In this document: positions 13,170 to 60,248 of the stretch, piece after piece
Position numbering within the stretch: the stretch's first letter is position 1
Layout: each line of letters starts with the position of its first letter
Source of the DNA: Paenibacillus dendritiformis
Lineage (GTDB): Bacteria; Bacillota; Bacilli; Paenibacillales; Paenibacillaceae
Assembly (NCBI RefSeq): GCF_945605565.1
Contig: NZ_OX216966.1
Location: 2,243,501-2,307,500 of the forward strand
Reading direction: 5' to 3'
DNA length: 64,000 nucleotides
Position numbers and translations under genes: made by a program
The notes under the pieces: generated by a model
What the model saw: the letters and a program-made list of their open reading frames with translations, nothing else
The model's database searches: none
Told to the model about the DNA's origin: nothing

Positions 13170-13184
13170 GATAGAACACTTGAA

Positions 13185-18147: not shown

Positions 18148-18178
18148 TGCTTCTTGTAACGAAAAGGAGGAGAACGGA

Positions 18179-19585: not shown

Positions 19586-19630
19586 GCTGCCGCTTAGCAA
19601 AGGGCGAATGACAGAAGGAGAGAAGGCGGA

Positions 19631-34288: not shown

Positions 34289-35377
34289 CTAACTCTGCAG
34301 GAAAGAGGCCCCGTAAGCGATGGGATTGAAGTAGGTGGCCTCCCAAATGTCGTACAGTCCGGCTTCGCGGAAGCTGTAGCGTTGGTCGCGCCCGTTGCAT
34401 TCAATGAATAACGGCTTGCCGTCGGACGTCAACCCGATATCGAGTCCGACATCAGCCATATGGCTCAAGCTGTGGGAAAGCCGATTCACGATATGAAGAG
34501 AGAATGCGCTGACGCGCTCCACCACCTCCGCGACGGAGCAATGCGGTAAAGCGGCGGCAACAAGCTCTTCGAGCCGATGAACCGTCCCTCCCTGCGCAAC
34601 GTTGGTAACGAAGGTATGCTGAGGCGCGACCCGGCCGACGATTCCGGTGATTTGCCACTCTCTGCTTCCGTCGCGTTGAACAGAGACCCGCAAATCAAAG
34701 GGACGATCGTGGTACCGGGCGAGTGGAAGCAGCTCCTGCACAAGATAGGGAGTCCGCCGCAGTTGGGCAAGCACGAATCGCGGCAGCCTGCCGCCCGGGA
34801 GATTCGCCTTCCTCCACTTTCTCGCTCCGCCGGCTGTTCGTCTGGAATAGACAATGGTCCAGCCGGTGCTGCTGCGTTCCAGCTTCATAATGCCGCGTCC
34901 GACACTGTTGTTGTCCGGCTTCAGCACGACAGCGCCGCAGTTGTCCATCATCGCCGCGACGGTGCCCTTCCGGGCAGGCGCAGTAACCGGCAAATGAGGC
35001 ACGAGCGCGGGATCTTGCTGGAGCAGAACGTGGAGCTTCCATTTTCCGTATCGATTCACCTGATTGAAAATAACCGTGCCGCGGTTCACCATCGACTGGA
35101 CTCGTGCATGCGCTCCGGAACGGAAATAGATAGCCCGGTTATGAATGACGGACGGGACGGGAATGCGCCGTCTCGCGTAGCCCGTACCGTCTCTTATATA
35201 GGCAACGGCCTCCATCTTCCTCACATTCACATCTTCCACGCGCATGAAGCAGGGAATAACGCCGTGGCGCCTCCCGGCTTCCTCGTAGAAGGCAATGGCT
35301 TCATGCCCTGTCTTGTTCCGCAGCAATCCCCGCAACATGTTCGAATTGAACAGGATGCCGATGCGGTTGTCTGCCAT
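34289..35377 (-). CDS. YheC/YheD-family ATP-grasp spore protein
   Basis: 362 residues. Family of endospore coat-associated proteins with an ATP-grasp ligase fold. N-terminal RIGILFNSNMLRGL, then the VVLKPDNNSVGRGIMKLE segment and the ATP-grasp metal loop DVGLDIGLTSDGKPLFIECN near the C-terminus. Start ATG 35377 has GAGGAGG upstream. A -10-like CATACAATA (minus, 35427-35435) suggests a mother-cell sigma factor (E or K), but no matching -35 was found. Enzymatic product unknown. Fits the spore-surface theme of the following genes. Confidence 0.8.
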   Translation of the reverse strand: MADNRIGILFNSNMLRGLLRNKTGHEAIAFYEEAGRRHGVIPCFMRVEDVNVRKMEAVAYIRDGTGYARRRIPVPSVIHNRAIYFRSGAHARVQSMVNRGTVIFNQVNRYGKWKLHVLLQQDPALVPHLPVTAPARKGTVAAMMDNCGAVVLKPDNNSVGRGIMKLERSSTGWTIVYSRRTAGGARKWRKANLPGGRLPRFVLAQLRRTPYLVQELLPLARYHDRPFDLRVSVQRDGSREWQITGIVGRVAPQHTFVTNVAQGGTVHRLEELVAAALPHCSVAEVVERVSAFSLHIVNRLSHSLSHMADVGLDIGLTSDGKPLFIECNGRDQRYSFREAGLYDIWEATYFNPIAYGASFLQS

Positions 35378-35576: not shown

Positions 35577-36725
35577 ATGCACAAGGTTGCAATCCTAACG
35601 CCAGGATCCTATCCTTATCCGTCAGGTTCCAGCAGTTCGGTGGAGCGAGTCGTCGAGAATGTCGCTGGTCTCGTGTCGTCCCGTGCGGACATTCGCGTGT
35701 ACGGCCGGAGATGGCCGGGGCAGGCTGAGTCGGAATCGGTGCGCGGCGTCAAAGTCGAACGGGTCGGACCGGTTTCCTTGCGGTTTTATGTGTATGAAGC
35801 GATGCGGCGCATAGCTCAGTTCCAGCCCGATATTATCCAGATTGAGAACCGGCCCCGATACATTCCGCTAATGAAGCGGCATTTTCCGCACGCGCACATC
35901 TGGCTGCAGCTTCATTCCACCACCTTTATGCACAGACAGGCGATCTCGCCAGCCGGGCTTCGGCGGGCGCTGTCTGCTGCCGACCAGATATTTGTGAACA
36001 GCCGCTATTTGGAAAGGCGGGTGACACGGGCATATCCTGGATGCAGGGAGAAGACGGCCATCAATTTGCTAGGCGTGGACGTCGAGCGCTTCCCGTCACG
36101 CTGGACAGAAGAAGGGATCCAACGTTATACGGAAGGGAAACGGGCCCGCGGATGGGAAGGGCGGGACATTGTTCTGTATGTCGGTCGCCTCATCCCGCAA
36201 AAAGGCGTCTGGGAGCTGCTGCAGGCTGTACCGCGCGTCATCCGCGAGCATCCGCGGGCGCTGTTCGTCATTGTCGGGGGCGCTTCTTACGGATTGAACC
36301 GGAAGACGGCGTACGTGCGCCGCCTGGAACGGTTCGCGAGCAAGTACCCGCATCATATTCGGATGGTCCCTTTTGTCCCGCATGAGGAAGTTCCGGCTTG
36401 GTACGCGCTGGCCGATCTTCTTGCCGTCCCGTCGCTTCGCCGGGAAGCGTTCGGTCTGGTCAATCTGGAGGCGATGGCTTCAGGAGTCCCGGTCGTGGCA
36501 TCCAGGGTAGGAGGAATTCAGGAGGTCGTCCGGGACGGAGAGACCGGGCTGCTCGTCCCGCCGTACCGTCTGCCTGTCCGGTTGGCCTCGGCCCTTGTCC
36601 GGCTGCTTCGGGATCGGGAAGCGCTGCGGCAGATGGGAGAGACCGCTGACCGGCATGTACGCAGCACGTTCACCTGGAAGCAGACGGCGGAGCGCTGGGC
36701 CAGCTTCATTGACGGCCTCGGCTGA
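35577..36725 (+). CDS. Glycosyltransferase family 4, spore-coat type
   Basis: 382 residues, GT-B fold. N-terminal acceptor half begins KVAILTPGSYPYPSGSSSSV; C-terminal nucleotide-sugar half carries DIVLYVGRLIPQKGVWELLQ and the EX7E-type motif in LRREAFGLVNLEAMASGVPV (Glu pair) followed by GGIQEVVRDGETGLLVPP. Resembles CotSA/YtcC-type enzymes of Bacillus spores. AGAAAGGAGA ribosome site. It stands directly upstream of the giant repeat protein and could glycosylate it (inference). Confidence 0.85.
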   Translation: MHKVAILTPGSYPYPSGSSSSVERVVENVAGLVSSRADIRVYGRRWPGQAESESVRGVKVERVGPVSLRFYVYEAMRRIAQFQPDIIQIENRPRYIPLMKRHFPHAHIWLQLHSTTFMHRQAISPAGLRRALSAADQIFVNSRYLERRVTRAYPGCREKTAINLLGVDVERFPSRWTEEGIQRYTEGKRARGWEGRDIVLYVGRLIPQKGVWELLQAVPRVIREHPRALFVIVGGASYGLNRKTAYVRRLERFASKYPHHIRMVPFVPHEEVPAWYALADLLAVPSLRREAFGLVNLEAMASGVPVVASRVGGIQEVVRDGETGLLVPPYRLPVRLASALVRLLRDREALRQMGETADRHVRSTFTWKQTAERWASFIDGLG

Positions 36726-36800: not shown

Positions 36801-36828
36801 ACGATATGAGCCTATAACGCATATGATG
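36801..36828 (+). promoter_or_regulatory. Possible sigma-K promoter of the giant repeat gene
   Basis: AC at 36801-36802, 17 bp, CATATGATG at 36820-36828. Sigma-K consensus is AC-N16/17-CATAnnnTA, so one of the -10 positions is off. It lies 39 bp before the start codon. Confidence 0.4.
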
Positions 36829-36866
36829 CTCTATATGTTGGGCATAGAACGGAAAGGAGAGAGCAC

Positions 36867-39800
36867 ATGAAAAGGAAAAATGAAAAGCGGACAACCAAGG
36901 GACAGAAGCCAATAAAGAAATCGTCCAGAAAGCCGCTATACTTTGTCGACAATCCGAACCAGTCGGAGTTATCGCTGCTGGACCGTCTTAGTTCAACGAA
37001 GAAGCCGCCGGAAGATTCCCCAAAAGCAAGCGTCAATGCGCTGGCTGCCCTTGAAGCCATAGAGCCGGAGCAGGAGAATTCGATGCCGCCGATCACGGCA
37101 GTATCCGAGCGAGACCCTGACGACGGGATCGGGGAGGAGTTGGAAGCAATGACGGAGGCGGCAGAGGCCAAAGAGGAACCGCTGCCTCCCGAGAACCCGA
37201 CCGCTGCGGTTGAGCCGGAAGAAGTCGAAGGGGCAGATGATCTTATACCGCCGGGAAGGCCAACGTCCCGTCAAGCAGGGAGCAGCCGCCGCAATGAGCG
37301 AACTGCGAAGCGGCATGCTGGTACGGAACGTTCCCGATCAGGAGAAGAGGAACGTCCATCGCCTAAGGAAAGCAAAGAAGATCATCCGACCTATACGTCG
37401 GCATTCAACATGCCGGGGACGTTGCCGACTGGACCTGCAGCGCGCGATGCTGCCGCACGGCCAGGCTCGGACGAACCGGCCGCACCGACTCCCCCGCCGG
37501 CTGCTCAGCCTGAAGTCAATGCCGCCGATGCCCGCAAGGCGAAGGAGAAGCTGCTGGCAGAGAAGCGGAGTTCGGCACGATCGACCGCCTTTATCTATAC
37601 CGATGATATCGCGGATGAAGCGGTGACGGAGGAGAAGCTGGCCGCCTATTCGATCAGCGGATCGAAGCTGCGGCGCGAGAGCATTGGCACCGACATGCTG
37701 ATTGACTATGCCGTTACATCCTTGAAAATTGCGGAGGAGGCGGTAACTGGCTCTAAAATTGCTCCCAACTCGATCGCCGGGGAGCATTTAATCCGCAACG
37801 CCGTGTCCGGCGGCAAGCTTCGCGACCGCTCGGTTACGGGGGAGAAAATTAAGGACGGCAGCATCACTTCCGAGAAGCTGGCGGACAAAACGATCGATTC
37901 GTCCAAGATCGCGGAAGGATCGATTCAAGCGAAGCATCTGAGCGAGCTGCTGATTTCGGGCAATCTGATTCAAGATCAAGCGATTACCGCGGAGAAAATC
38001 CGCAGCGGTGCCATTCGCACGGAAAATCTGGCGAACGAATCGGTTGACGCCTCCAAGCTGGCGCCTGAGTCGGTTACGAACTCCAAGCTGCGCGCCGGGG
38101 CGATTACCGGCGACAAGCTGGCGCCAGGGAGCATCGACGCCCGTCATTTCAGCGAAGGGGCTGTTGAAGGCCGTGCTATCGGAATGCAGGCGGTGGAGGG
38201 CCGCCATATCGGCCCCGGGCAGATCGACAGCACTCATATCGCGCTCGGCACGCTCTCCGGAGCGATGCTTGAAGCGAAGAGCATCACCAGCGAGCCGCTA
38301 GCTGACGAGGCGGTGCAATCCCGTCATCTGGCAGAAGATAGTATTCGCGAGGGGCATATCGGCCCAGGACAGATCAGCGGCCGCCATCTGGCCGACAGAG
38401 TCATTACCACCGCCAAGCTGGCGGATCAATCCGTCAGCACGATGAAGCTTGTCGAACACGCGGTCACCTCCTCCAAGCTGGCGGATCAAAGCGTGCTGTC
38501 GACGAAGCTGGCGGATGAAGCGGTCCGTTCCCGGCACCTCGGCAAGCAATCGGTCGACGGGCAGCATTTGGCCCTTCAGGCCGTAGAGTCCCTTCACATC
38601 GCTGAGGAGGCCGTCAATGAGATACACATCGCCGCCGGTGCTGTAAATGGAATTCATCTTATGCCGGAAGCGGTTCATGGCGCGCATCTTGCCGATGAAG
38701 CGGTGGAAAGCCGGCATGTAGGCTACCAGGCGATCGAGAGCCGGCATCTTGGCGATGAAGCGGTAACCACCGCCAAGTTGGCTCCGGCCGCCGTATCGTC
38801 CGATCAACTGGCGGATGAAGCGGTTATAGCCCGGAAGCTGGGTGCTGCCAGCGTCACGCCGGAGAAGCTGGCCTATGCCAGTGTGCAGCAGCATCATTTG
38901 GCGGAAGGAGCGGTTGGCCCGGAAGCGATCGGCCCGCATGCGGTGCAGGAGGAGCATATTGCCATTGGAGCGATCCGGTCGGGACATATTTATCCGCAGT
39001 CTATCCAGTCTACCGAGCTGGCTCCGGAGGCCGTCACGAGCGAGAAGCTGTCGGTGAATGCCGTCTGTGAGCGCCATATCGGAACGGGAGTCATCTATTC
39101 CCATCATCTGGCCGACCATATTATTACATCTTTGAAATTGTCTCCGGAGAGCGTATCGACCGATAAACTAAGCGATTTGTCCGTCACGACCGCCAAGCTG
39201 ACGAACGGTAGCGTAACCGCAGACAAACTGGCGGAGAACAGCGTGACAACTGCACATCTCGTCGCTGGAGCCGTCACGTCCGACACTCTGGCTGACGAGA
39301 GCGTCCAGGCGCAGCATCTCGCACCGAATTCGGTAGGGGCGGGGCAACTGCAGCCGGATTCGGTCTCAGGGGCGACGATTCAAGAATCAGCGATTCGCGC
39401 GGAGCATGTGCATCCCGGCAGCATCGGCTCGGTTCAGCTTGATGCAGCCAGCGTAGGCAGCGAGCACGTGATTGAGGGAACCATTCACGCCCAGCATATC
39501 GCAGGCGGGAGCATCGGGTCCGAGCATCTCGTCGATGCGGCCGTTACAGGAGATAAATTGGCAGATGACAGCGTCGGGGCCCGGAATCTCCAAGCGGCAA
39601 GTGTAGATACCGATCATCTGGCGGAGGAAGCCGTCACCGGTTTGAAGCTGGCTCCCGGTTCGATCGGCTCTCACCATGTACGGGAAGGAGCGATCCGGTC
39701 CGTCCATCTGGCATCGCATTCTGTCGGCGAGGATCAGCTTCAGCCGAAATCGATATCTTCAGGAATGCTGCAGGAGGACAGCATAACTGCGGCCAGTATC

Positions 39801-42800
39801 GCTCCCCAGTCTATCACGGAGAAGCATGTGGCGCTGGAAGCGATATCCGGCAAGCATCTGCAAGCAGAATCGATTCAGGGGTACCATTTGCGCAAAGGAA
39901 CGATTACGATGGCGCATTTGGGCTCCGATGTGCTCTCCAGCGATATTATCCCGGAGGGCAGTCTGGCCGGGAGCAAGCTTCAACCTCGGGCCGTGACGAG
40001 CGGACATATGGCGGATGCCGCCATCCAAGCCAGCCATCTGGCCGACGATGCGGTTCACTCCCGCCATATTGCGGTTCAAGCGATCCGTGCGGAGCATCTT
40101 TCCGCCAGCTCGGTGTCCGGCGAGCATCTTGCTTCCGACTCGGTCGGCGGCGAGGCGATAGCGGAAGGCGCTGTCAGCAGCGGCCATCTCTCGGCAGGCG
40201 CGGTGCAAAGCCAGCATGTCGCTTCCGGAGCGATTCAAGCAGAGCATTTGCAGAAGAACGCGATTACAGGCGAGCATATCCGGCAGACAGCGATCGGCAG
40301 TCATCATTTGCAGCCGGGATTGATTGACAGCCAGCATCTCCAGCCCGGCGTGATTGTATCCGCTCATTTAAGCGAAGGGGCTGTGCTTCCGCATCATTTG
40401 CGGGAGCAGACAATCGGAGAGCAGCATCTGCAGGCCGCAAGCATCCGTGCGGATATGCTTCAGGATGGTGCCGTGACGGAACGGAGCCTGAGTGACGGCT
40501 GTGTGACGAGCGGCAAGCTGGACGTGGGCAGCATCGCGCGTGAGCATGTGCAACCGGGAGCTATTGGCAGCACGGAGCTGGCAGGCGGCACGGTTCATTC
40601 GTCCCATGTGCAGCATGGTGCCATTGGCAGCGCCCATATTGAGACAAATGCGATCGGAAGCGAGCAATTGGCAGAAGGAACGGTCGGCTTGTCGCATCTG
40701 AATGAAGAAGTAATGGAACTGTTAACCTCGGCGACAACGCCGAAGCCGGCGGAGGCCGTTGTGATTGAGGAAGAATCGATCGCAACGGAGATGCTGCATT
40801 CCGGGGCCGTTACGGCAGAGAAGCTGGCTCAACAGAGTGTCGGATCGATTCATCTGCAGGAGCAGGCGATCAATTCCTCGCATTTGGAGGAAGCGGCGGT
40901 GGAGGGGCGGCATATCCGCCCGCAAGCAATCACCAGTGAGCATATCGGCACGGGTGCCGTCCAGTCCGAGCAAATCGCGAGCGGAGCCGTGCTTGGCAGC
41001 CATCTGGCTGCAGGCGAAGTAACGGGGCACCATATTGCCGAAGGGCAGGTAGCCGGCCAGCATATGGGAGCGGGCGTAGTCACCGGCCATCATATCGCTA
41101 AGGGCGAAGTAGCCGGTTGGCATATTGGTTCGGGTGAAGTAAAAGGCCGCCATATCGCCGAAGGCGAAGTAGCGGGATCGCATATCGGAGCGGGCGTAGT
41201 CACCGGCCATCATATCGCTGAAGGCGAGGTAGCCGGCGAGCATATCGGGGCTGGGCAAGTTACCGGCCGTCATATCGCCGAGGGCGAGGTAGCCGGTCAT
41301 CATATCGGAGCGGCTGAAGTCACAGGCCGTCATATCGCGGAAGGCGAGGTAGCCGGCGATCATATCGGAGCAGGAGAAGTCAGAGGCATCCATATCGGAA
41401 CGGGCGAAGTTACCGGCCGTCATATCGCTGAAGGCGAGATAGCCGGTGATCATATCGGAGCAGGAGAAGTCACCGGCCGTCATATCGCCGAGGGTGAAGT
41501 AGCCGGTCACCATATCGGAACGGGTGAAGTCAGAGGCCGTCATATCGCCGAAGGCGAGGTAGCGGGTCGCCATATCGGAACGGGGGAAGTTACCGGCCGC
41601 AACATCGCTGAAGGCGAGGTAGCCGGCGAGCATATCAGAGCAGGAGAAGTGACCGGCCGTCATATCGCCGAGGGTGAAGTAGCCGGTCGCCATATCGGCA
41701 CGAGTGAAGTCAGAGGCAGCCATATCGCCGAAGGCGAGGTAGCGGGCTATCATATCGGAGAAGGAGAAGTCACAGGCCGTCATATCGCTGAAGGCGAGGT
41801 AAGTGGCTATCATATCGGAGCGGGCGAAATCACCGGCCGCCATATCGTGGAAGGAGAAGTAGCCGGTCATCATATTGGAACAGAGGAAGTCACCGGCCGT
41901 CACATCGCCGAGGGCCAGGTAGCCGGCCGTCATATCGGGGCAGGAGAAGTCACCGGCCGTCATATCGCAGAAGGCGAGGTAGCCGGTGAGCATATCGGAG
42001 CAGGTGAAGTCACCGGCCGTCATATCGCCGAAGGCGAGGTAGCTGGTGATCATATCGGAGCAGGAGAGGTCACAGGCCATCATATCGGCGAGGGCGAGGT
42101 ATCTGGCCGTCATATCGGAGCAGGAGAAGTAACGGGCCGTCATATCGCCGAGGGCGAGGTATCAGGATGGCATATCGGTGCCGGCGAAATAACGGACCGC
42201 CATATCGCTGAAGGCGAAGTCGCGGGTTATCATATTGGCAAGGGCGAAATAGCCGGTGAGCATATCGGGGCCGGAGAAGTAAAAGGCCGCCATATCGCCG
42301 AGGGCGAAGTAGGAGGCCAGCATATTGGAACGGGAGAAGTAAAAGGCCGTCATATCGGCGAGGGCCAGGTAACGGGCTTTCATATCGGAACGGGCCAACT
42401 CACCGGCCGTCATATCGCCGAGGGCGAGATCGCGGACTATCATATCGGAGCAGGGAAAGTCACCGGCCGTCATATCGCTGAAGGCGAGATAGCAAGTGAG
42501 CATATCGGAGCAGGCAAAGTTACCGGCCGTCATCTCGCTGAGGGTGAGGTAGCGGGTCGTCATATCGGAGCAGGTGAAGTCACCGGCCATCATATCGCCG
42601 AGGTTGAGATAGCCGGCCGTCATATCGGAGCGGGCGAAATCACCGGCTGTCATATCGCCGAGGGCGAAGTAGCAGGCCATCATATCGGAGCAGGAGAAGT
42701 CACCGGCCGTCATATCGCCGAGGGCGAAGTAGCAGGCCATCATATCGGAACGGGCGAACTCACAGGTCGCCATATCGCCGAAGGCGAGGTTGGAGGGCAT

Positions 42801-45800
42801 CATATCGGAGAGGCAGAAATAACGGGCCGCCATATCGCCGAGAGTGAGGTAGCGAGTCGTCATATCGGAGCAGGAGAAGTCACCGGCCGTCATATCGCCG
42901 AGGGCGAAGTAACGGGCCATCATATCGGAACGGGCGAACTCACAGGTCGCCATATCGCCGAAGGCGAGGTTGGAGGGCATCATATCGGAGAGGCAGAAAT
43001 AATGGGCCGCCATATCGCCGAGAGTGAGGTAGCGAGTCGTCATATCGGAACGGGAGAAGTCACCGGCCGCCATATCGCCGAGGGCGAGGTAGCGGGCTAT
43101 CATATCGGAACGGACGAAATCACTGGTCGTCATATAGCCGAAGGCGAGATAGCGGACCATCATATCGGAGCAGGGAAAGTCACCGGCCGTCATATCGCCG
43201 AAAGTGAGGTAGCGGGTCGTCATATCGGAACGGGAGAAGTCACCGGTCGTCATATCGCCGAGGGCGAGGTAGCGGGCTATCATATCGGAGAGGCAGAAAT
43301 AACGGGCCGCCATATCGGCGAATGCGAGATTCTGGGCCATCATCTTGGAGCAGGAGAAGTCACCGGCCGCCACATTGCTGAAGGCGAGGTCGTGGGCCAT
43401 CATATCGGAACGGGCCAAGTAACGGACCGTCATATCGGTGAGGGTCAGATCACCGCTCATCATATCGGTTCGGAAGAAGTGAATGGCCGCCATATTGCCA
43501 AAGGTGAGGTAGGCAGTCATCATATCAGAACGGGCGGAGTAACGGGCCGTCATATCGGAGAAGGAGCGGTCGCTGACCATCACATCGGTTCGGGGGAAGT
43601 GACCGGCCGCCATATCGGCGAAGGCGAGGTAGCGGGCCGTCACATTGGTTCGGGTGAAGTAACGGGCCATCATATCGGCGAAGGCGAGGTAGCGGGCCGT
43701 CACATTGGTTCGGGTGAAGTAACGGGCCATCATATCGGTGAAGGCGAAGTAGCCGGCCGCCACATTGGTTCGGGTGAAGTAACGGGCCATCATATCGGTG
43801 AAGGCGAGGTAGCCGGCCGCCATATTGGTTCGGGTGAAGTAACGGGCCATCATATCGGCGAAGGCGAGGTAGCGGGCCGTCATATTGGTTGGGGCGAAGT
43901 AACGGGCCATCATATCGGCGAAGGCGAGGTAGCCGGCCGCCATATCGGAACGGGCGAAGTAACGGGCCGCCATATCGGCGAAGGCGAGGTCACCGCCCAA
44001 CATATCGGTTCGGGTGAAGTAACGGGCCGCCATATCAGCGAAGGCGAGGTGACCGCCCAACATATCGGTTCGGGTGAAGTAACGGGCCGCCATATCAGCG
44101 AAGGAGAAGTAGCCGGCCAACATATCGGGGCAGGCGAAGTAACGGGCCGCCATATCGGCGAGGGTGAGGTTAGAGGCCAGCATATCGGAGAGGCAGAAAT
44201 AACGGGCCGCCATATTGCCGAGAGTGAGGTAGCGCGTCGTCATATCGGAACGGGCGAAATCACCGGCCGTCATATCGCCGAGGGCGAGGTAGCGGGCTAT
44301 CATATCGGAACGGGCGAAATCACCGGCCGTCATATTGCCGAGGGCGAGGTAGCGGCCTATCATATCGGAACGGGCGAACTCACAGGTCGCCATATCGCCG
44401 AAGGTGAGGTTGGGGGCCAGCATATCGGAGAGGCAGAAATAACGGGCCGCCATATTGCCGAGAGTGAGGTAGCGGGTCGTCATATCGGAACTAGCGAAAT
44501 CACCGGTCGTCATATCGCCGAGGACGAGGTAGCGGGCTATCATATCGGATCGGGTCAACTCACAGCTCGCCATATCGCCGAAGGCGAGGTTAGGGGCCAG
44601 CATATCGGAGAGGCAGAAATAACGGGCCGCCATATTGCCGAGAGTGAGGTAGCGGGTCGTCATATCGGAACTAGCGAAATCACCGGTCGTCATATCGCCG
44701 AGGACGAGGTAGCGGGCTATCATATCGGATCGGGTCAACTCACAGCTCGCCATATCGCCGAAGGCGAGGTTAGGGGCCAGCATATCGGAGAGGCAGAAAT
44801 AACGGGCCGCCATATTGCCGAGAGTGAGGTAGCGCGTCGTCATATCGGAACGGGCGAAATCACCGGCCGTCATATTGCCGAGGGCGAGGTAGCGGCCTAT
44901 CATATCGGAACGGGCGAACTCACAGGTCGCCATATCGCCGAAGGCGAGGTTGGGGGCCAGCATATCGGAGAGGCAGAAATAATGGGCCGCCATATTGCCG
45001 AGAGTGAGGTAGCGGGTCGTCATATCGGAACTAGCGAAATCACCGGCCGTCATATCGCCGAGGGCGAGGTAGCGGGCTATCATATCGGAACGGGCGAACT
45101 CACAGGTCGCCATATCGCCGAAGGCGAGGTTAGGGGCCAGCATATCGGAGAGGCAGAAATAATGGGCCGCCATATTGCCGAGAGTGAGGTAGCGGGTCGT
45201 CATATCGGAACGGGCGAAATCACCGGCCGTCATATTGCCGAGGGCGAGGTAGCGGCCTATCATATCGGAACGGGCGAACTCACAGGTCGCCATATCGCCG
45301 AAGGTGAGGTTGGGGGCCAGCATATCGGAGAGGCAGAAATAATGGGCCGCCATATTGCCGAGAGTGAGGTAGCGCGTCGTCATATCGGAACGGGCGAAAT
45401 CACCGGCCGTCATATCGCTGAGGGCGAGGTAGCGGGCTATCATATCGGAACGGGCGAAATCACCGGCCGCCATATTGCCGAGAGTGAGGTAGCGGGTCGT
45501 CATATCGGAACGGGTGAACTCACAGGTCGCCATATCGCCGAAGGCGAGGTTGGGGGCCAGCATATCGGAGAGGCAGAAATAATGGGCCGCCATATTGCCG
45601 AGAGTGAGGTAACGCGTCGTCATATCGGAACGGGCGAAATCACCGGCCGTCATATCGGCGAAGGAGCGGTAGCCGGCCAGCACATTGGAGAGGCAGAAAT
45701 AACGGGGCGCCATATCGCGGAATGCGAGATTATGGGCCACCATCTTGGAGCAGGAGAAGTTACCGGCCGCCACATTGCTGAAGGTGAAGTAGGGGGCCAT

Positions 45801-47318
45801 CATATCGGAACAGGCGAAGTAACGGACCGTCATATCGGTGAAGGTCAGGTCACCGCTCATCATATCGGTTCGGAAGAAGTGAATGGCCGCCATATTGCCA
45901 AAGGTGAGGTAGGCGGTCATCATATCAGAACGGGCGGAGTAACGGGCCGTCATATCGGCGAAGGAGCGGTCGCTGACCATCATATCGGTTCGGGCGAAGT
46001 GACCGGCCGTCATATCGCCGAGGGCGAGGTAGTCGGCCGTCACATTGGTTCGGGCGAAGTAACTGGCCGTCATATCGCCGAAGGCGAGGTAGCCGGCCAT
46101 CATATCGGAGCAGGAGAAGTCACCGGCCGCCACATTGCTGAAGGTGAAGTAGTGGGCCATCATATCGGAGCAGGCGAAGTAAAGGGCCGCCATATCGGCG
46201 AAGGAGCGGTCGCTGACCATCATATCGGTTCGGGCGAAGTGACCGGTCGCCATATCGGCGAAGGCGAGGTAGCCGGTCATCATATCGGAGCAGGAGAAGT
46301 CACCGGCCGCCACATTGCTGAAGGTGAAGTAGTGGGCCATCATATCGGAGCAGGAGAAGTCACCGGCCGCCACATTGCTGAAGGTGAAGTAGTGGGCCAT
46401 CATATCGGAACAGGAGAAGTCACCAGCCGTCATATCGGTGAAGGTCAGGTCACCGCTCATCATATCGGTTCGGAAGAAGTGAATGGCCGCCATATCGCCA
46501 AAGGTGAGGTAGGCGGTCAGCATATCAGAACGGGCGAGGTAACGGGCAGTCATATCGCCGAAGGCGTAGTAGCCGGCCAACATATCGGAGCAGGCGAAGT
46601 AAAGGGCCGCCATATCGGCGAAGGTGAGGTCACCGCCCAACATATCGGTTCGGGCGAAGTAACGGGCCGTCATATCGGCGAGGGCGAGGTAGCCGGCCGT
46701 CATATTGGTTCAGGCGAAGTAAAGGGCCGCCATATCGGCGAAGGTGAGGTCACCGCCCAACATATCGGTTCGGGCGAGGTAACGGGCAGTCATATCGCCG
46801 AAGGCGTAGTAGCCGGCCAACATATCGGAGCAGGCGAAGTAACGAGCCGCCATATCGGGGAAGGCGAGGTCACCGGCCAGCATATCGGAGCAGGTGAAAT
46901 AACGAGCCGCCATATTGGCGAAAGAGAAGTCACTGGCCAACATATCGCAGCGGGGAGCATCCGGGCCGAGCACCTGGAAGAGGAAGTCTTAAATTCGATT
47001 GTGCTCCAGCCCGGAACGGTTACACCGGAATCCTGTTCCTTCGTCCCAGTTCGAACCTCGATGCCGCGCGCCGGAGCGCTGCAGCAATTCGGGATGAGCG
47101 CATTTCTGCTTCAGGGGGCGACAGACCGGGTAGACGTTCGCATTGCCTTCGATGAGCCGTTCCCGAATAATCAATATGTTCTTGTCGCGATGACCAACCA
47201 CCCGGAATGCCATGCGGTGCTGAAATCGCAAGCAACGCACAGCGCCGTTCTGGAAATACACCGCAAAGATCCGCAGTCACAGCCTTTCGGCTGCGTATCC
47301 TGGATTGCGATCGGCTAG
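36867..47318 (+). CDS. Giant decapeptide-repeat protein with lectin-like C-terminal domain
   Basis: 3483 residues; AAAGGAGAG upstream of the ATG. Layout: basic start (MKRKNEKRTTKGQKPIKKSS), then an acidic, Pro/Glu-rich segment to about residue 245. Repeat tract 1 (about 245-1281) has diverse decapeptides like AVTSEKLAxxSV. A unique linker (about 1282-1305, TSATTPKPAEAVVIEEESIA) follows, then tract 2 to about 3365, which becomes a uniform His-rich 20-mer (GRHIAEGEVAGHHIGAGEVT). The last 110 residues look globular (FDEPFPNNQYVLVAMTNHPE) and end in CVSWIAIG, like H-type lectin domains of phage tail proteins and, from memory, the WIAG-tail family. No signal peptide or membrane helix, so probably assembled on the spore from the mother cell. 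Likely a solenoid fibre; function unknown. Confidence 0.85.
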   Translation: MKRKNEKRTTKGQKPIKKSSRKPLYFVDNPNQSELSLLDRLSSTKKPPEDSPKASVNALAALEAIEPEQENSMPPITAVSERDPDDGIGEELEAMTEAAEAKEEPLPPENPTAAVEPEEVEGADDLIPPGRPTSRQAGSSRRNERTAKRHAGTERSRSGEEERPSPKESKEDHPTYTSAFNMPGTLPTGPAARDAAARPGSDEPAAPTPPPAAQPEVNAADARKAKEKLLAEKRSSARSTAFIYTDDIADEAVTEEKLAAYSISGSKLRRESIGTDMLIDYAVTSLKIAEEAVTGSKIAPNSIAGEHLIRNAVSGGKLRDRSVTGEKIKDGSITSEKLADKTIDSSKIAEGSIQAKHLSELLISGNLIQDQAITAEKIRSGAIRTENLANESVDASKLAPESVTNSKLRAGAITGDKLAPGSIDARHFSEGAVEGRAIGMQAVEGRHIGPGQIDSTHIALGTLSGAMLEAKSITSEPLADEAVQSRHLAEDSIREGHIGPGQISGRHLADRVITTAKLADQSVSTMKLVEHAVTSSKLADQSVLSTKLADEAVRSRHLGKQSVDGQHLALQAVESLHIAEEAVNEIHIAAGAVNGIHLMPEAVHGAHLADEAVESRHVGYQAIESRHLGDEAVTTAKLAPAAVSSDQLADEAVIARKLGAASVTPEKLAYASVQQHHLAEGAVGPEAIGPHAVQEEHIAIGAIRSGHIYPQSIQSTELAPEAVTSEKLSVNAVCERHIGTGVIYSHHLADHIITSLKLSPESVSTDKLSDLSVTTAKLTNGSVTADKLAENSVTTAHLVAGAVTSDTLADESVQAQHLAPNSVGAGQLQPDSVSGATIQESAIRAEHVHPGSIGSVQLDAASVGSEHVIEGTIHAQHIAGGSIGSEHLVDAAVTGDKLADDSVGARNLQAASVDTDHLAEEAVTGLKLAPGSIGSHHVREGAIRSVHLASHSVGEDQLQPKSISSGMLQEDSITAASIAPQSITEKHVALEAISGKHLQAESIQGYHLRKGTITMAHLGSDVLSSDIIPEGSLAGSKLQPRAVTSGHMADAAIQASHLADDAVHSRHIAVQAIRAEHLSASSVSGEHLASDSVGGEAIAEGAVSSGHLSAGAVQSQHVASGAIQAEHLQKNAITGEHIRQTAIGSHHLQPGLIDSQHLQPGVIVSAHLSEGAVLPHHLREQTIGEQHLQAASIRADMLQDGAVTERSLSDGCVTSGKLDVGSIAREHVQPGAIGSTELAGGTVHSSHVQHGAIGSAHIETNAIGSEQLAEGTVGLSHLNEEVMELLTSATTPKPAEAVVIEEESIATEMLHSGAVTAEKLAQQSVGSIHLQEQAINSSHLEEAAVEGRHIRPQAITSEHIGTGAVQSEQIASGAVLGSHLAAGEVTGHHIAEGQVAGQHMGAGVVTGHHIAKGEVAGWHIGSGEVKGRHIAEGEVAGSHIGAGVVTGHHIAEGEVAGEHIGAGQVTGRHIAEGEVAGHHIGAAEVTGRHIAEGEVAGDHIGAGEVRGIHIGTGEVTGRHIAEGEIAGDHIGAGEVTGRHIAEGEVAGHHIGTGEVRGRHIAEGEVAGRHIGTGEVTGRNIAEGEVAGEHIRAGEVTGRHIAEGEVAGRHIGTSEVRGSHIAEGEVAGYHIGEGEVTGRHIAEGEVSGYHIGAGEITGRHIVEGEVAGHHIGTEEVTGRHIAEGQVAGRHIGAGEVTGRHIAEGEVAGEHIGAGEVTGRHIAEGEVAGDHIGAGEVTGHHIGEGEVSGRHIGAGEVTGRHIAEGEVSGWHIGAGEITDRHIAEGEVAGYHIGKGEIAGEHIGAGEVKGRHIAEGEVGGQHIGTGEVKGRHIGEGQVTGFHIGTGQLTGRHIAEGEIADYHIGAGKVTGRHIAEGEIASEHIGAGKVTGRHLAEGEVAGRHIGAGEVTGHHIAEVEIAGRHIGAGEITGCHIAEGEVAGHHIGAGEVTGRHIAEGEVAGHHIGTGELTGRHIAEGEVGGHHIGEAEITGRHIAESEVASRHIGAGEVTGRHIAEGEVTGHHIGTGELTGRHIAEGEVGGHHIGEAEIMGRHIAESEVASRHIGTGEVTGRHIAEGEVAGYHIGTDEITGRHIAEGEIADHHIGAGKVTGRHIAESEVAGRHIGTGEVTGRHIAEGEVAGYHIGEAEITGRHIGECEILGHHLGAGEVTGRHIAEGEVVGHHIGTGQVTDRHIGEGQITAHHIGSEEVNGRHIAKGEVGSHHIRTGGVTGRHIGEGAVADHHIGSGEVTGRHIGEGEVAGRHIGSGEVTGHHIGEGEVAGRHIGSGEVTGHHIGEGEVAGRHIGSGEVTGHHIGEGEVAGRHIGSGEVTGHHIGEGEVAGRHIGWGEVTGHHIGEGEVAGRHIGTGEVTGRHIGEGEVTAQHIGSGEVTGRHISEGEVTAQHIGSGEVTGRHISEGEVAGQHIGAGEVTGRHIGEGEVRGQHIGEAEITGRHIAESEVARRHIGTGEITGRHIAEGEVAGYHIGTGEITGRHIAEGEVAAYHIGTGELTGRHIAEGEVGGQHIGEAEITGRHIAESEVAGRHIGTSEITGRHIAEDEVAGYHIGSGQLTARHIAEGEVRGQHIGEAEITGRHIAESEVAGRHIGTSEITGRHIAEDEVAGYHIGSGQLTARHIAEGEVRGQHIGEAEITGRHIAESEVARRHIGTGEITGRHIAEGEVAAYHIGTGELTGRHIAEGEVGGQHIGEAEIMGRHIAESEVAGRHIGTSEITGRHIAEGEVAGYHIGTGELTGRHIAEGEVRGQHIGEAEIMGRHIAESEVAGRHIGTGEITGRHIAEGEVAAYHIGTGELTGRHIAEGEVGGQHIGEAEIMGRHIAESEVARRHIGTGEITGRHIAEGEVAGYHIGTGEITGRHIAESEVAGRHIGTGELTGRHIAEGEVGGQHIGEAEIMGRHIAESEVTRRHIGTGEITGRHIGEGAVAGQHIGEAEITGRHIAECEIMGHHLGAGEVTGRHIAEGEVGGHHIGTGEVTDRHIGEGQVTAHHIGSEEVNGRHIAKGEVGGHHIRTGGVTGRHIGEGAVADHHIGSGEVTGRHIAEGEVVGRHIGSGEVTGRHIAEGEVAGHHIGAGEVTGRHIAEGEVVGHHIGAGEVKGRHIGEGAVADHHIGSGEVTGRHIGEGEVAGHHIGAGEVTGRHIAEGEVVGHHIGAGEVTGRHIAEGEVVGHHIGTGEVTSRHIGEGQVTAHHIGSEEVNGRHIAKGEVGGQHIRTGEVTGSHIAEGVVAGQHIGAGEVKGRHIGEGEVTAQHIGSGEVTGRHIGEGEVAGRHIGSGEVKGRHIGEGEVTAQHIGSGEVTGSHIAEGVVAGQHIGAGEVTSRHIGEGEVTGQHIGAGEITSRHIGEREVTGQHIAAGSIRAEHLEEEVLNSIVLQPGTVTPESCSFVPVRTSMPRAGALQQFGMSAFLLQGATDRVDVRIAFDEPFPNNQYVLVAMTNHPECHAVLKSQATHSAVLEIHRKDPQSQPFGCVSWIAIG
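37611..40710 (+). repeat. Coding repeat tract 1, 30-bp period, diverse
   Basis: About 103 decapeptide units. Phase is kept without any indel: the His codon of EHL at 37785 and of SHL at 40695 are exactly 97 x 30 bp apart. Units vary in sequence (EKLA, SKIA, RHLG, QHIA) around the fixed hydrophobic positions. Confidence 0.9.
40776..46980 (+). repeat. Coding repeat tract 2, 30/60-bp period, homogenised
   Basis: About 206 decapeptide units, out of phase with tract 1 by 6 bp because of the linker. From about 41,021 to 46,950 the units pair into about 99 copies of a 60-bp repeat, all in strict register. Contains an exact 180-bp tandem duplication (44461-44640 and 44641-44820). A larger block near 43321-43620 recurs at 45721-46020 with about 2.4 kb offset. 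Confidence 0.92.
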
Positions 47319-47348
47319 CTTGCGGCCGATACGCCGGTGAAGCAAGGA

Positions 47349-47377
47349 AGCCGCCAGATGCCAACTGGCGGCTTTTT
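47349..47377 (+). terminator. Terminator after giant repeat gene
   Basis: AGCCGCCAG / CTGGCGGCT stem with 7-nt loop and TTTT, 30 bp after the stop codon. Confidence 0.9.
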
Positions 47378-47510
47378 ACACATCTGAGGCGATCCGTCGG
47401 GTTATGGAAGAAAGCGGGCCGAATGTGTACATGAGCCGTTGCACTCTGGACTATGCCTCATACAATGGGATGTAAATACATGTGCAATTTGCCCGGGAGG
47501 GAGACGTGCA

Positions 47511-48320
47511 ATGGCTCATTCCAAAAGATATCGTTCTGCGCGAACACGTACCCGCCGGCAGGTACGACGATATCGAATCCATAGTTCTTCCGATCCCTTT
47601 GTGTCGGTCATCATCCCGGTTTTGAATGAACGGCGGACATTGGCTCGTGTCATTGAACGGGCGGCACAGGTGCATCCGGCCACTGAGGTCATTGTTGTAG
47701 CGAACGGAACGACCGACGGCTCAGACCGCATCGCGGCAGAGATGGGAGCCCGCGTTCTTCGTTATGCGATCCCGCTTGGCCACGATAAGGGCAGAGCCGT
47801 TGGAGCCGAGGCCGCGGCGGGACGCATTCTGCTGTTCATCGACGCCGATATGGTGCTGTCTGCTGCAGATTTGCGCCCGTTCATACATGCGGTGAACAAT
47901 GGCGTTGATGTCGCTCTCAATAATTATCAGGGGCCTGTCCGGAAGCATGATGTACACGGAGTTGTCCTGGCAAAGCACGCATTGAATGCCATGCTGTCCC
48001 GGCAGGATCTGGGGGGAGCCTCCATGACTGCCGTTCCGCATGCATTGAGCCGTCGGGCGCTTGCTCTGATCGGTGCGGACGCGCTGTCCGTCCCCCCGCT
48101 TGCGCATACGATGGCCGTCGTATACGGGCTGGATATCCGCGCAGTGCACACGATTAATGTCGGGCGCATGAATCGGATACGTGTTCGGGGGCTGCGCGAG
48201 GATCCGCTGGAGCCGTTGATATGCCAAGATCATTTGCAAGCGATACGCTGGCTGATGGAACAGCGGGGCCCTCGGGGCGGCCACTCGGATTTGACCAGAC
48301 AACGGGAGCGGGTGACATGA
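47511..48320 (+). CDS. Glycosyltransferase family 2 with Arg-rich N-terminus
   Basis: 269 residues from ATG 47511 (GGGAGGGAG upstream; the longer frame from 47439 lacks a ribosome site). Basic leader [20 protein letters not shown], then a GT-A domain: [30 protein letters not shown], and the metal-binding motif LLFIDADM (DxD) near residue 115. Paralog of the next gene. A CATACAATG -10-like element (47459-47467) may be recognised by sigma-E or K. Donor and acceptor unknown; probably a spore-surface glycan. Confidence 0.8.
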
Positions 48321-48324
48321 TGCC

Positions 48325-49524
48325 ATGAGAAGGAAACGATCCTTCCGCAGAACAAAGAACGTTATCCGGGGGCTTCGCAGATCATCACGTCGCCGCCAGT
48401 CGAGCCGGGGAAGAAGAAGAGGCTACCGCCGCCTGCGGGCTGGCCGCATGACAAGACGCAGCCGGCTCCGGCAACGCGGACATAAGCAGCTTCCGCATAG
48501 GAAGCGCCAGCTGCATGAGCCGCAGACAAGAGGAGCGTGGCGCCATGCTGCACAGGATGCGGGAAGGCGGCATGGCGACGAATATGCCGCATTGGGCGGA
48601 CAGGAAACGTACAAGGACATCGTCCGCTTCATGCAAAGCCGGTTCACCGAGTTCCTCGCGCCATATCGGCTTGCTCCCTTATCCTACTCGCAAATCAGAG
48701 AGTTGGCGGAAGCGTACAGAGCTGGATTTACGAGAGGAAGGTATCAGAACGGGAGGGAAGCCGTACTGATTCCGACCACAAGGCCGATCGATGCAATCGT
48801 GTGCGCCCAAAATGAAGAAGATAGCATCGCAGGAGTGTTGAAGGAGCTCGGACGCCTGCCGCTGTCGCGCACCATCGTCGTGGTGAACGGCTCCTCGGAT
48901 GGGAGCTTGCAGGCGGTGCATGAAGCTTCGGAGGACGCCTGCATCGTTCACTACCCGGAAGCGCTTGGCCATGACGTTGGCCGCGCTATCGGGGCGACTC
49001 TGTCTCAAGCGGAGATTCTGTTGTTCGTGGATGCCGATATCCCGATTGCCGCTGAGGAGCTCGGCGCTTTTATATGGGCATGCGACAATGGCATCGATGT
49101 GGCGCTCAACGACATCAGTCCGTTCCTGGGACCCTTCTTCAACCGTGATGGAATTACGCACTGCAAGGAGTGGCTGAACCGCAGTCTGGGCCGCGCCGAC
49201 TTGCATGCCAATTCACTGACCGCTGTCCCTCATGCCATTACCCGCCACGCGCTGGAGACCGTAGGCGTGCAGAATTTGATCGTTCCTCCCAAATTCCAGA
49301 CGCTTGCCTTGGCCCGGGGCTTGCGCACGGAAGCGGTGCATGCGGTCGACGTTATCGGAAGGAATCGGATACGCCGCACGAACGTAGGCGCATTGAATCC
49401 GGTTGCCGAGCTTATCATCGGGGATCATGTGGAGGCATTTCATTCCCTGTGGGAGGAAAATGCATCATTTTTCAGCGAGACGCACCAACGTGAGCAGATT
49501 GCCGAGAGGAGGAACGGAGGATGA
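48325..49524 (+). CDS. Glycosyltransferase family 2 with long Arg-rich leader and Gly-aromatic motif
   Basis: 399 residues. The first 60 residues are extremely Arg-rich (RRSSRRRQSSRGRRRGYRRL), followed by a linker and the motif AYRAGFTRGRYQNG near 133-146. The GT-A domain then starts (DAIVCAQNEEDSIAGVLKEL, VVVNGSSDGS, LLFVDADI). Same catalytic domain as the preceding gene: both have GHD.GRA.GA and [15 protein letters not shown] near the end. It begins 4 bp after the upstream stop, so they are coupled. Confidence 0.8.
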   Translation: MRRKRSFRRTKNVIRGLRRSSRRRQSSRGRRRGYRRLRAGRMTRRSRLRQRGHKQLPHRKRQLHEPQTRGAWRHAAQDAGRRHGDEYAALGGQETYKDIVRFMQSRFTEFLAPYRLAPLSYSQIRELAEAYRAGFTRGRYQNGREAVLIPTTRPIDAIVCAQNEEDSIAGVLKELGRLPLSRTIVVVNGSSDGSLQAVHEASEDACIVHYPEALGHDVGRAIGATLSQAEILLFVDADIPIAAEELGAFIWACDNGIDVALNDISPFLGPFFNRDGITHCKEWLNRSLGRADLHANSLTAVPHAITRHALETVGVQNLIVPPKFQTLALARGLRTEAVHAVDVIGRNRIRRTNVGALNPVAELIIGDHVEAFHSLWEENASFFSETHQREQIAERRNGG

Positions 49525-49626: not shown

Positions 49627-50358
49627 GTGAAAGGAATTATTTTGGCGGGAGGCACAGGCACCCGTCTATATCCGTTGACGAAGCTGATGAATAAGCATTT
49701 GCTGCCCGTTGGCCGGCATCCGATGGTCAGCTATGGCATCGAACGTCTGCGTGCGGCGGGCATTACGGATATTATTATGGTTATTGGGAAAATGTCAGCA
49801 TCTTTGTTTACCGGCTATTTCGGGAGCGGGCAGTCCTGCGGCGTTCATCTGACCTTTGCCATCCAGGAGGAAGCAGGCGGCATCGCCCAAGCACTCTCGC
49901 TGGCGAAGCCGTATATTGCTCCTGGCGAGAAATTCGTCGTACTGCTCGGCGATAATTTGTTCCGCGACGATCTGGCTCCATATGTAGCGGCATTCGGCGA
50001 TCAGAGGCCAGGCGAAGCACGCGTTCTGCTGCGGAAAGTGCCCGACCCGGAGCGATATGGAGTGCCTGTCTTCGACAGCGCCGATCGGAAGCGGATAGTC
50101 CGTATTGAAGAGAAGCCCGAGCATCCGTCGTCTTCGTATTGCGTAACAGGCATTTATATGTATGATACCGATGTCTTTCATCATATTGAGGCAATTGTAC
50201 CATCCGAGCGCGGGGAATTGGAGATTACGGATGTCAACAACCGGTACGCGGCCGCAGGCAAGCTGCACTACGATGTGCTTCGATCATGGTGGACGGATGC
50301 GGGAACGTTCGAGTCGCTGCATGAAGCAGCTCATGAGTTGAAGGAGGTTGAGTTATGA
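49627..50358 (+). CDS. rfbA: Sugar-1-phosphate nucleotidyltransferase, RfbA/SpsI-like
   Basis: 243 residues from GTG 49627 (AGAAGGAGGG 7 bp upstream). Makes an NDP-sugar, most likely dTDP-glucose, from sugar 1-phosphate. Signature GGTGTRLYPLTK (8-19), then NKHLLPVG, the LLGDN metal motif (106-110), and IEEKPEHPSSSY. The length (243) matches the short Bacillus SpsI type, lacking the C-terminal regulatory extension of enterobacterial RmlA. Overlaps the dehydratase gene by 4 bp (ATGA). Confidence 0.88.
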   Translation: MKGIILAGGTGTRLYPLTKLMNKHLLPVGRHPMVSYGIERLRAAGITDIIMVIGKMSASLFTGYFGSGQSCGVHLTFAIQEEAGGIAQALSLAKPYIAPGEKFVVLLGDNLFRDDLAPYVAAFGDQRPGEARVLLRKVPDPERYGVPVFDSADRKRIVRIEEKPEHPSSSYCVTGIYMYDTDVFHHIEAIVPSERGELEITDVNNRYAAAGKLHYDVLRSWWTDAGTFESLHEAAHELKEVEL

Positions 50359-51347
50359 ACCGGCTTCTCGTAACCGGAGGCATGGGGTTCATTGGCAGTA
50401 ACTTCATTCTCTATATGCTGGCCCGTCGCCCGGAAATCCACATTACGAATCTGGATGCGCTCACTTATGCAGGCAATCCGGATAATTTGCAGCATATTGC
50501 CGATAGCGGAGCCTACCGCTTCGTACGGGCTGATATAACGGATGCGGGGGCTGTGGAACAGATTATGGAGGAGGGAGCATTCGATGCGATCGTGCACTTT
50601 GCAGCCGAATCCCATGTCGACCGCAGCATTGCGGATCCGGAGTCATTCGTCCGCACGAATGTGCTGGGCACGTTCCGATTGCTGGAATCGGCACGGCGCC
50701 ACAGCATTTCCCGCTTTATTCACGTGTCGACCGACGAAGTGTACGGGACGTTAGGATCGACCGGCTTTTTTACGGAAGACTCCCCGCTCATGCCGAACAG
50801 CCCCTATTCTGCCAGCAAGGCCGGATCGGATATGTTGGCACGTTCGTATGCCCGCACGTATGGCCTGCCTGTCATTATTACCCGCTGCTCGAACAATTAC
50901 GGTCCGCGCCAATTTCCGGAGAAGCTTATCCCTACAATTATTACGCAAGCGATTCAAGATCGGCCGATTCCCGTATATGGGGACGGTTCCCATGTGCGAG
51001 ACTGGCTCTACGTCGATGATCATTGCGCAGCGATTGACGCAGCGCTGCGGCATGGGCAGCCTGGCGAGGTCTATAATATCGGCGGCCACCAGGAGCGCAC
51101 GAATCTGGAGGTTGTCCGGATGGTGCTGAATCAGTTGGGGAAGCCGGAGTCGCTGATTGCCTTCGTTGCTGATCGCCCGGGTCATGATCTGCGTTATGCG
51201 ATCGATCCCGGCAAGACCGAACGCGAGCTCGGCTGGACTCCGAGCGTAAGCTTGTCCGAAGGAATGAAGCAGACGATATCCTGGTATGTGAACAACCGCG
51301 CATGGTGGGAACGTGTCCTGTCCGGGGCGTATTTGCACGGTAGATAG
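50355..51347 (+). CDS. rfbB: dTDP-glucose 4,6-dehydratase, RfbB/SpsJ-like
   Basis: 330 residues. Extended SDR enzyme producing dTDP-4-keto-6-deoxyglucose, the first step to rhamnose and other 6-deoxysugars. NAD loop TGGMGFIG (7-14), HFAAESHVDRS, catalytic STDEVYG (125-131, Thr-Asp-Glu) and YSASK (151-155). Coupled to the preceding nucleotidyltransferase. RmlC and RmlD are not next door, so the final sugar cannot be named. Confidence 0.92.
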   Translation: MNRLLVTGGMGFIGSNFILYMLARRPEIHITNLDALTYAGNPDNLQHIADSGAYRFVRADITDAGAVEQIMEEGAFDAIVHFAAESHVDRSIADPESFVRTNVLGTFRLLESARRHSISRFIHVSTDEVYGTLGSTGFFTEDSPLMPNSPYSASKAGSDMLARSYARTYGLPVIITRCSNNYGPRQFPEKLIPTIITQAIQDRPIPVYGDGSHVRDWLYVDDHCAAIDAALRHGQPGEVYNIGGHQERTNLEVVRMVLNQLGKPESLIAFVADRPGHDLRYAIDPGKTERELGWTPSVSLSEGMKQTISWYVNNRAWWERVLSGAYLHGR

Positions 51348-51412
51348 TCTGATCCCGAAGCCGCCTCGCCATCATCGCCATGCAGATGAAGCCAGGAAGG
51401 GAGGAGACACGT

Positions 51413-52459: not shown

Positions 52460-52483
52460 CTCGAATGAAGGAGGTGCGCCGAG

Positions 52484-53960: not shown

Positions 53961-54021
53961 AGACAAGGAAGCGGAGTTAACACCTGTGCGCGATCCGTTA
54001 TTTTGCCGGGGAGGAAGAAGC

Positions 54022-54309
54022 ATGCATAACGTCGTGGACGAAATTATTATCCATATGTCCCATACGCATCAGCATATGGCCCGCGTTCTGGACGCGGAAC
54101 GTCAGGTTGCGGTCCGGATGGCACAGCTCATTCACGCCCTGCCGGACGTTAACCCCGATTTTGCCGGCCTGAGCGGACTGAAGGAGCAATCCGCTGCGTT
54201 AACGAAAAATATCGTCGCTTACTTGAACGGAATCGCGGAGCTGGAAGAGGCATTGGCCGAGCAGCTTGAACATGTTATCAAAGAATTGAACGACGATGGC
54301 GAAGAATGA
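54022..54309 (+). CDS. Small helical protein A of spore-surface locus (unknown)
   Basis: 95 residues from ATG 54022 (GGGGAGGAAGAAG directly upstream, better than the GTG at 53986). Fully helical in appearance, acidic C-terminus. MSHTHQHMARVLDAERQVAV and EALAEQLEHVIKELNDDGEE are its amphipathic ends. I do not recognise a characterised family. First gene of a tight operon of three similar-sized proteins and the basic-tail protein. Confidence 0.75.
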   Translation: MHNVVDEIIIHMSHTHQHMARVLDAERQVAVRMAQLIHALPDVNPDFAGLSGLKEQSAALTKNIVAYLNGIAELEEALAEQLEHVIKELNDDGEE

Positions 54310-54329: not shown

Positions 54330-54668
54330 TTGAGCAGAGAGCGCTCCTATCATCTTATATTGGATGCCATAGCCAAGATGCAGTGGAACGTCGCCATGAT
54401 TTTGGAAGCCAAAGCGGTGGAAGCAGAAAAAACGCGAAATTGGATGCTAAATCATTTGACGGAGACCGCTTTTGTCAACCATAAAGAGCAAATCAGCGAT
54501 CCGTTGGAGATTCATAACCAAGTTGTTGAAGTCCTTGACGGATTGACCAAAATCCAGCTCAGTCTCGCCCGGAACATGAAAGTCGTCCTTGACCGGGGAG
54601 AATCGGGTTCGATGGGAGACGGACTAGGAGACGGATCTTTCAGCGGAGAATATGATTTGGGGAGATAA
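54330..54668 (+). CDS. Small helical protein B of spore-surface locus (unknown)
   Basis: 112 residues from TTG 54330 (GGGGGGAG 6 bp upstream). Two or three helices (YHLILDAIAKMQWNVAMILE, LTKIQLSLARNMKVVLDRGE) and a Gly/Ser-rich tail. Spacing of the Met/Leu/Ala residues in WNVAMILEAKA and LSLARNMKVVL resembles the MARVLDAE stretch of protein A, so distant relatedness is possible. Function unknown. Confidence 0.75.
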   Translation: MSRERSYHLILDAIAKMQWNVAMILEAKAVEAEKTRNWMLNHLTETAFVNHKEQISDPLEIHNQVVEVLDGLTKIQLSLARNMKVVLDRGESGSMGDGLGDGSFSGEYDLGR

Positions 54669-60247: not shown

Positions 60248-60248
60248 C

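Follow-up and report, generated by a model that had tools for sequence, protein, structure and literature searches.

Spores of the Bacillus cereus group carry fibrils of BclA and of F-BclA/L-BclA, which combine an anchor, a length-variable shaft and a trimeric globular tip and have a glycosyltransferase gene nearby, and F-ENA endospore appendages (DUF4183) are reported on a Paenibacillus isolate, both according to PMC11952670. Here we describe a gene of Paenibacillus dendritiformis located at 36867-47318 (+) of the 64,000-nucleotide stretch analyzed, hereafter the window (contig NZ_OX216966.1, positions 2,243,501 to 2,307,500). Judged from its sequence, the product of this fibre gene is probably a filament of the spore surface with a layout like that of phage tail fibres. 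By analogy, it would share with BclA fibrils the common logic of an anchor, a variable repeat shaft and a globular tip. However, its shaft is not collagen, its tip is not C1q/TNF-like and no sequence relation was seen. No Gly-X-Y shaft was found on reading the sequence, neither collagen nor, in Pfam, a C1q/TNF-like domain matched at E ≤ 0.1, and the folds ranked highest for the head model are those of H-lectins and fibre heads. F-ENA are spore filaments in the same bacterial family as the host of the gene, but they are fibres of small subunits while the fibre protein is one giant chain, and DUF4183 gave no match in it at E ≤ 0.1. Elsewhere in the same genome there is one DUF4183 (F-ENA type) match, in a 132-residue frame (G000:C1:5516856-5517065). 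The spore proteins CpbA and CpbB of Brevibacillus laterosporus were considered as possible relatives and set aside, since they are far smaller and no link was found in their description (PMC5335551). The best reading, by analogy, is that the fibre is functionally like BclA or ENA tip fibrils.

The gene is a single open frame of 3483 codons with an ATG start, and in searches of its own genome it is the sole match of the head family, being present in one copy. The protein has a computed size of about 360 kDa and an isoelectric point of 5.7. It consists of a basic N-terminus, a linker reaching to about residue 242, a first repeat tract, a break, a second repeat tract and a head ending in SWIAIG. 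The original prediction, made from the DNA alone, had described about 300 decapeptides in two tracts of near-perfect phase followed by this globular end, and all of this was borne out. A fixed rule (V/I/L followed five residues on by L/I/M/V/F/A, chained every 10 residues) counted 312 decapeptides, and in tracts 1 and 2 the lag-10 identity, 0.297 and 0.537, is far above the respective maxima of 0.110 and 0.151 found in 1000 shuffles. Tract 1 (37593-40712, +, residues 243-1282) has 104 decapeptides and is opened by YTDDIADEAVTEEKL. After a short non-repeat break (40713-40763, +) comes tract 2 (40764-47033, +, residues 1300-3389) with 208 decapeptides and a His/Gly-rich paired core of 20 residues (60 bases). 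Most of tract 2 is made of 20-residue units TGRHIAEGEV-AGHHIGAGEV, its lag-20 identity of 0.735 exceeds its lag-10 value, and Tandem Repeats Finder reported 99 copies of the 60-base unit. Codon third positions differ most between these units (0.451, versus 0.188 for first and 0.192 for second positions), a pattern that fits translation of the + strand under protein-level selection and marks this strand as the coding one. An open frame of 1513 codons also runs across tract 2 on the opposite strand (42162-46703, -) and is most likely a by-product of the repeats.

The shaft resembles phage tail fibres. PHROG 892 'tail fiber protein' matched 18 stretches of tract 1 (E 3.5e-142) and 32 of tract 2 (E 1.5e-126), and further PHROG tail families also matched the shaft; these E-values are inflated by the repetition, and therefore the alignments were inspected as well. 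With a 200-residue piece of tract 1, tblastn found 120 phage records (E ≤ 1e-3), all with less than 60% identity, and among the 20 phage matches listed were proteins annotated as tail fibre, minor tail and host specificity protein J, as well as hypothetical proteins. The tail fibre-like protein STIP37_39 of Synechococcus phage S-TIP37 has 31 units of A-V/I-T-T-A-K-I/L-A-D-G, to be compared with A/S-V/I-T-S-x-H/K-L/I-A-D-G in the fibre protein, while proteins of two other phages (one read in part) have longest tracts of 50 and 55 units. The decapeptide consensus is very similar to that of phage tail fibres with AVTTAKLADG (PHROG 892; S-TIP37; Arthrobacter phage Mimi gp94). On this sequence evidence the shaft repeats are phage tail-fibre decapeptides, which the original prediction had missed. 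Other matches of the shaft were taken to reflect repeats or composition: NCBIfam HetL (pentapeptide repeat), at 36.4 bits against an equivalog cut-off of 260, and the Pfam families Fascin and 5_nucleotid_C with pieces of the shaft. The Pfam Decapeptide repeat region (PF25296) scored 14.9 bits, under its gathering cut-off of 45. The sequence search of tract 1 against the PDB gave nothing significant, the best match being 9eg4_H 'orf16' at E 0.12, with three alginate lyase chains above E 2; the aligned stretch of 9eg4_H visibly contains a few similar decapeptides. The full protein had no match in the protein databases at E 1e-3 (83 candidates within a length filter of 0.55-1.75).

The head (residues 3405-3483, 47079-47315, +) matches NCBIfam NF012201, 'WIAG-tail domain', with E 1e-28 and 99.2 bits against a cut-off of 33. 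This family has a name without a function; most of the relatives read share the order of basic N-terminus, shaft and head, and the shaft described here is the second longest of the loci read. The head model is confident, and its top-ranked folds belong to H-type lectins and to the heads of pyocins and tailspikes, which agrees with the fibre architecture and lectin-like tip proposed originally. The predicted likeness to H-type lectins (Helix pomatia and Helix aspersa agglutinins, the discoidin C-terminal domain) is one of fold: sequence identity to H-type lectin structures is 10-18%, Pfam H-lectin is absent among the 25 families listed of 34 for the head, and the head alignment had no sequence match in the PDB at E up to 10. 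In the protein databases the head alone found 4 matches and the head alignment 7, all short or partial WIAG-tail proteins, and the head was not found in plasmid sequences. In the literature searched, 'WIAG-tail domain' occurs in a single table row, which concerns the tail fibre of an algal virus, 'WIAG' together with 'Paenibacillus' is absent, and no account of such a fibre appears for Paenibacillus spore fibres or proteomes. The domain label is known already; the new part would be that a fibre of phage type acts as a spore fibril.

The end that would attach the fibre differs from that of phages. A putative N-terminal anchor (36867-37046, +), recurrent in the order, has basic residues 1-22 followed by KPLYFVDNPNQSELSLLD, and an acidic, Pro-rich, low-complexity linker without a PHROG match leads to the shaft (37047-37592, +). 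Residues 1-240 gave no PHROG match at E ≤ 0.01, so no phage virion connector was detected there, and in its own genome the anchor region matches only the fibre gene at E ≤ 1. Comparisons covered 42 complete fibres from within the order (that of the window, those of 40 fetched loci of relatives and G448) and 18 from outside it, with the start codons of relatives picked by a ribosome-site rule. At least six K/R among the first 20 residues were found in 41/42 fibres of the order and 16/18 outside, a V-D/E/H-N/D-P motif within the first 60 residues in 28/42 of the order, an E-L/M/I-x-x-hydrophobic motif in the same region in 37/42 and 5/18, and a YTDD-like cap in 33/42 and 11/18. A TLPTGP near residue 185 may resemble an exosporium leader.

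Several features connect the gene to sporulation, as the original prediction had supposed. The sigma-K consensus is AC-N16-18-CATAnnnT. A sigma-K-like promoter, AC-N17-CATATGAT, was found by pattern search at 36801-36827 (+), with the -10 box at 36820-36827; it spans 66 to 40 bases before the ATG (AC at 66, -10 box at 47). CATAnnnT lies wholly 22-62 bases before the start in 41 of the 42 fibre genes of the order, which as related genes are not independent cases; the box lies there in 3.2% of shuffled sequences and ahead of 37 of 299 further frames from these loci. In contrast to phage tail fibres, the fibre gene has a sporulation-type promoter, and it is kept across most of the order. Outside the order CATAnnnT precedes 4/18 fibre genes, and GAATA stands in 12/18 where the order has GCATA, a count without a shuffle control; a different sigma factor or -10 preference may act there. 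The GAATA-type loci include L072, L076-L078, L080-L082, L084 and L086-L088. A ribosome-binding site AGGAG is present at 36855-36859 (+), and a terminator-like hairpin lies just past the stop (47345-47377, +, -21 kcal/mol, z -5.17), although a consensus terminator scan did not report it. With its own promoter box and its own 3' hairpin the gene seems to stand alone. SpoIVA is found in 268 of the 398 genomes of the class (own included), and all 109 head carriers are among them. Without the own genome the cross-table holds 108 genomes with head and spoIVA, none with the head only, 159 with spoIVA only and 130 with neither, the two samples being taken as one draw, as their handles show for all genomes listed. 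These sequence data suggest that the fibre gene is probably expressed during spore formation.

Several points weigh against a spore filament of phage-type parts. Common descent inflates the statistic for co-occurrence, because non-spore-formers belong largely to other clades, and the four members of the family without the head in the class sample are one genus, also without SpoIVA. The 159 spoIVA-positive genomes without the head family, together with the presence of spoIVA in five of six relatives lacking the head, mean that the fibre is dispensable for sporulation as such. The loose pattern AC-N15-18-CATAnnnT occurs 20 times on both strands of the window and within 200 bases of 3 of its 41 gene starts, while outside the order the GCATA box precedes 1/18 fibre genes and the VDNP motif is found in 0/18 complete fibres. 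Five complete relatives (G022b, G051, G058, G129 and G166) are free of decapeptides by the rule. The head had no tblastn match in phages at E 0.01 and no relative was found on viral contigs, and therefore its kinship with phage heads rests on the fold and weak profile matches. The single-chain model of the shaft is weak, with a predicted local distance difference test (pLDDT) score of 65.

The shaft model bears on the most durable alternative, an unlikely one, that the protein is a beta-solenoid scaffold inside the coat or a parasporal layer and not an outward filament. In the model most decapeptides form a strand of 6 residues and a turn of 4, VIA-align places it next to beta-helix and leucine-rich solenoids, and the 20-residue super-period fits a two-strand coil. 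However, the model has a pLDDT of 65 and no Foldseek match under E 1, a straight strand cannot turn both V and L, five residues apart, towards one core, conservation of the lectin-fold head speaks for its exposure, and tail fibres with the same repeats are generally known to protrude. The original prediction had also held that the His-rich uniform tract, with paired His in most 20-mers, could bind metal. At least two His do occur in 97 of 98 20-mers of tract 2, but adjacent HH in only 36 of 98. Metal binding found no support; the His content varies across the family, from 1.8 to 10.7% of residues in shaft-bearing members (9.0% here).

Less probable still is a giant adhesin on the vegetative cell surface or secreted, its link with sporulation due to clade membership only. 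Giant proteins that combine repeats with a sticky end are typical adhesins, and the many spore formers without the head family would fit. Against this, and in agreement with the original prediction, no signal-peptide-like hydrophobic segment was found at the N-terminus (maximum 19-residue Kyte-Doolittle mean 0.05 over the first 60 windows) and no membrane-helix-like segment in the whole protein by the same measure (largest mean 0.84). In addition, no cell-wall anchor was found among its Pfam or NCBIfam matches at E ≤ 0.1, and the upstream box is sigma-K-like.

The head family was found in 54 of the 60 genomes searched, comprising the own genome and 53 of 59 relatives, and in all 18 of the genus. 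In the class it occurs in 109 of 398 genomes (own included) and 41 of 146 sampled genera, and in a phylum-wide sample in 4 of 299 (own included), all of one family. It is absent from all 14 control genomes, Bacillus subtilis among them, and a search of six headless relatives with the head alignment found nothing. The loci fetched were 40 of the 54 places beyond the window and, from the class, 20 stretches that held 21 places; contig ends cut two places (G077 and G097), which were left out of the complete fibres. The named near relatives are Paenibacillus sp. 2.1, P. dendritiformis and P. popilliae, with P. thiaminolyticus (94%). In alignments with four close relatives, tract 1 is gap-free over 1035 residues at 89.7-95.1% identity, the last 94 residues are 97.9% identical and the N-terminus about 80%, whereas tract 2 reaches 74-78% identity and includes 242-1010 gap residues. 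Base and head therefore stay fixed while the outer shaft lengthens and shortens, as would result if the tandem 60-base units recombined and a fixed job fell to the base alone. Complete relatives other than the decapeptide-free ones have 49 to 391 repeats. Together with the repeat-free relatives this range indicates that N-terminus, shaft and head behave as modules, with shaft length as the variable. The second copy in G022 (L034) is a 305-residue paralogue that joins a VDNP-type N-terminus to a WIAG head and lacks decapeptides; the same genome encodes a long fibre as well. L089 and L090 (G129, G166) and L040 and L041 (G051, G058) are repeat-free WIAG proteins of about 200-350 residues with a basic N-terminus, that is, anchor and head alone.

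Glycosyltransferases were correctly predicted to flank the gene. Upstream there are a glycosyltransferase (Glycos_transf_1, 35577-36725, +), a YheC/D-like ATP-grasp protein (34289-35377, -) and, on the other strand from the fibre gene, a phosphatidylserine decarboxylase gene. Downstream follow a pair of family 2 glycosyltransferases of which the second has an Arg-rich N-terminus (47439-49524, +), an RmlA-like nucleotidyltransferase (under its equivalog cut-off) and a dTDP-glucose 4,6-dehydratase (above its cut-off) (49627-51347, +), and a GT-D-fold glycosyltransferase with another of family 2 (51380-53860, +). At least one of these sugar genes was matched near the fibre gene in 29 of the 40 loci of relatives, counted by eye; 11 had no match in fetched flanks of about 0.5-6 kb. 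Such neighbours suit a glycosylation of the shaft. The 30 other window proteins scanned with Pfam, a subset of its open reading frames, are encoded by metabolic, transport, regulatory and glycosyltransferase genes, unmatched frames and one transposase. That the gene is the out-of-context tail fibre of a resident or decaying prophage, as its tail-fibre-like shaft and head might suggest, is very improbable and largely refuted, since no phage structural gene was found among those 30 proteins, the gene is single-copy with the head in 53 of 59 relatives, most loci of the family are syntenic with phosphatidylserine decarboxylase, YheC/D or glycosyltransferase genes, the upstream box is sigma-K-like and the N-terminus has no phage match.

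Other features of the window were noted. Two small proteins without a Pfam match are encoded at 53986-54309 and 54330-54668, the first with a sigma-K-like box, and in G026, G028, G029, G030 and G037 the neighbourhood of the fibre gene contains homologues of one or both. An unusually long tandem array of ten consecutive genes of about 470-520 residues each occupies 5266-21094 (+); nine of the ten have a lipoprotein-like start with a shared GC-F/M-x-x-x-P-x-LEEL-type motif, and the three members scanned are extracellular solute-binding proteins. A DDE transposase gene (27859-29304) lies between this array and the fibre locus. Adjoining the sugar genes is an ABC transporter operon (58384-62623) with ABC_transp_aux and DUF4340 proteins, the former of which we take to be of the gliding type, GldG-like.

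For the favored reading of a spore-surface filament, we infer the following mechanism. Late in sporulation the chain would be made in the mother cell from the sigma-K-like promoter, without a signal peptide. Chains would assemble, most likely as a homotrimer, into a thin decapeptide shaft running from the YTDD cap to the lectin-fold head. In place of a virion-connector end, the basic N-terminus with its VDNPN-SEL-LD motif may dock on the outer coat or exosporium. The head would then be displayed far from the spore and may stick to a surface or glycan, and the neighboring enzymes may glycosylate the shaft. The distal tract would be free to change in length by gain and loss of repeats while the proximal tract and the head stay constant. 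More tentatively, with somewhat less than even confidence, a domesticated phage tail fibre may serve as a spore appendage in endospore-forming Bacilli, and in nearly all Paenibacillales, in which the phage shaft and receptor-binding head persist, a spore anchor has replaced the connector, the shaft, stretched to hundreds of repeats, has a constant base and an evolvable outer part, and spore attachment is aimed by a phage-type receptor-binding filament up to about 0.3 micrometre long, as estimated from known rises.

Dormant spores of many soil bacilli may thus carry long adhesive filaments of phage-type parts. If this is true, a usually single-copy gene in most sampled Paenibacillales gives spores a filament of tail-fibre parts that is not collagen, and a phage-type fibre has been reused in a new place. 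The natural length series, from no repeats to 391, would lend itself to probing what sets fibre length. Dormant, non-growing spores would also have a way to choose a surface or host other than by collagen-type or ENA fibres.
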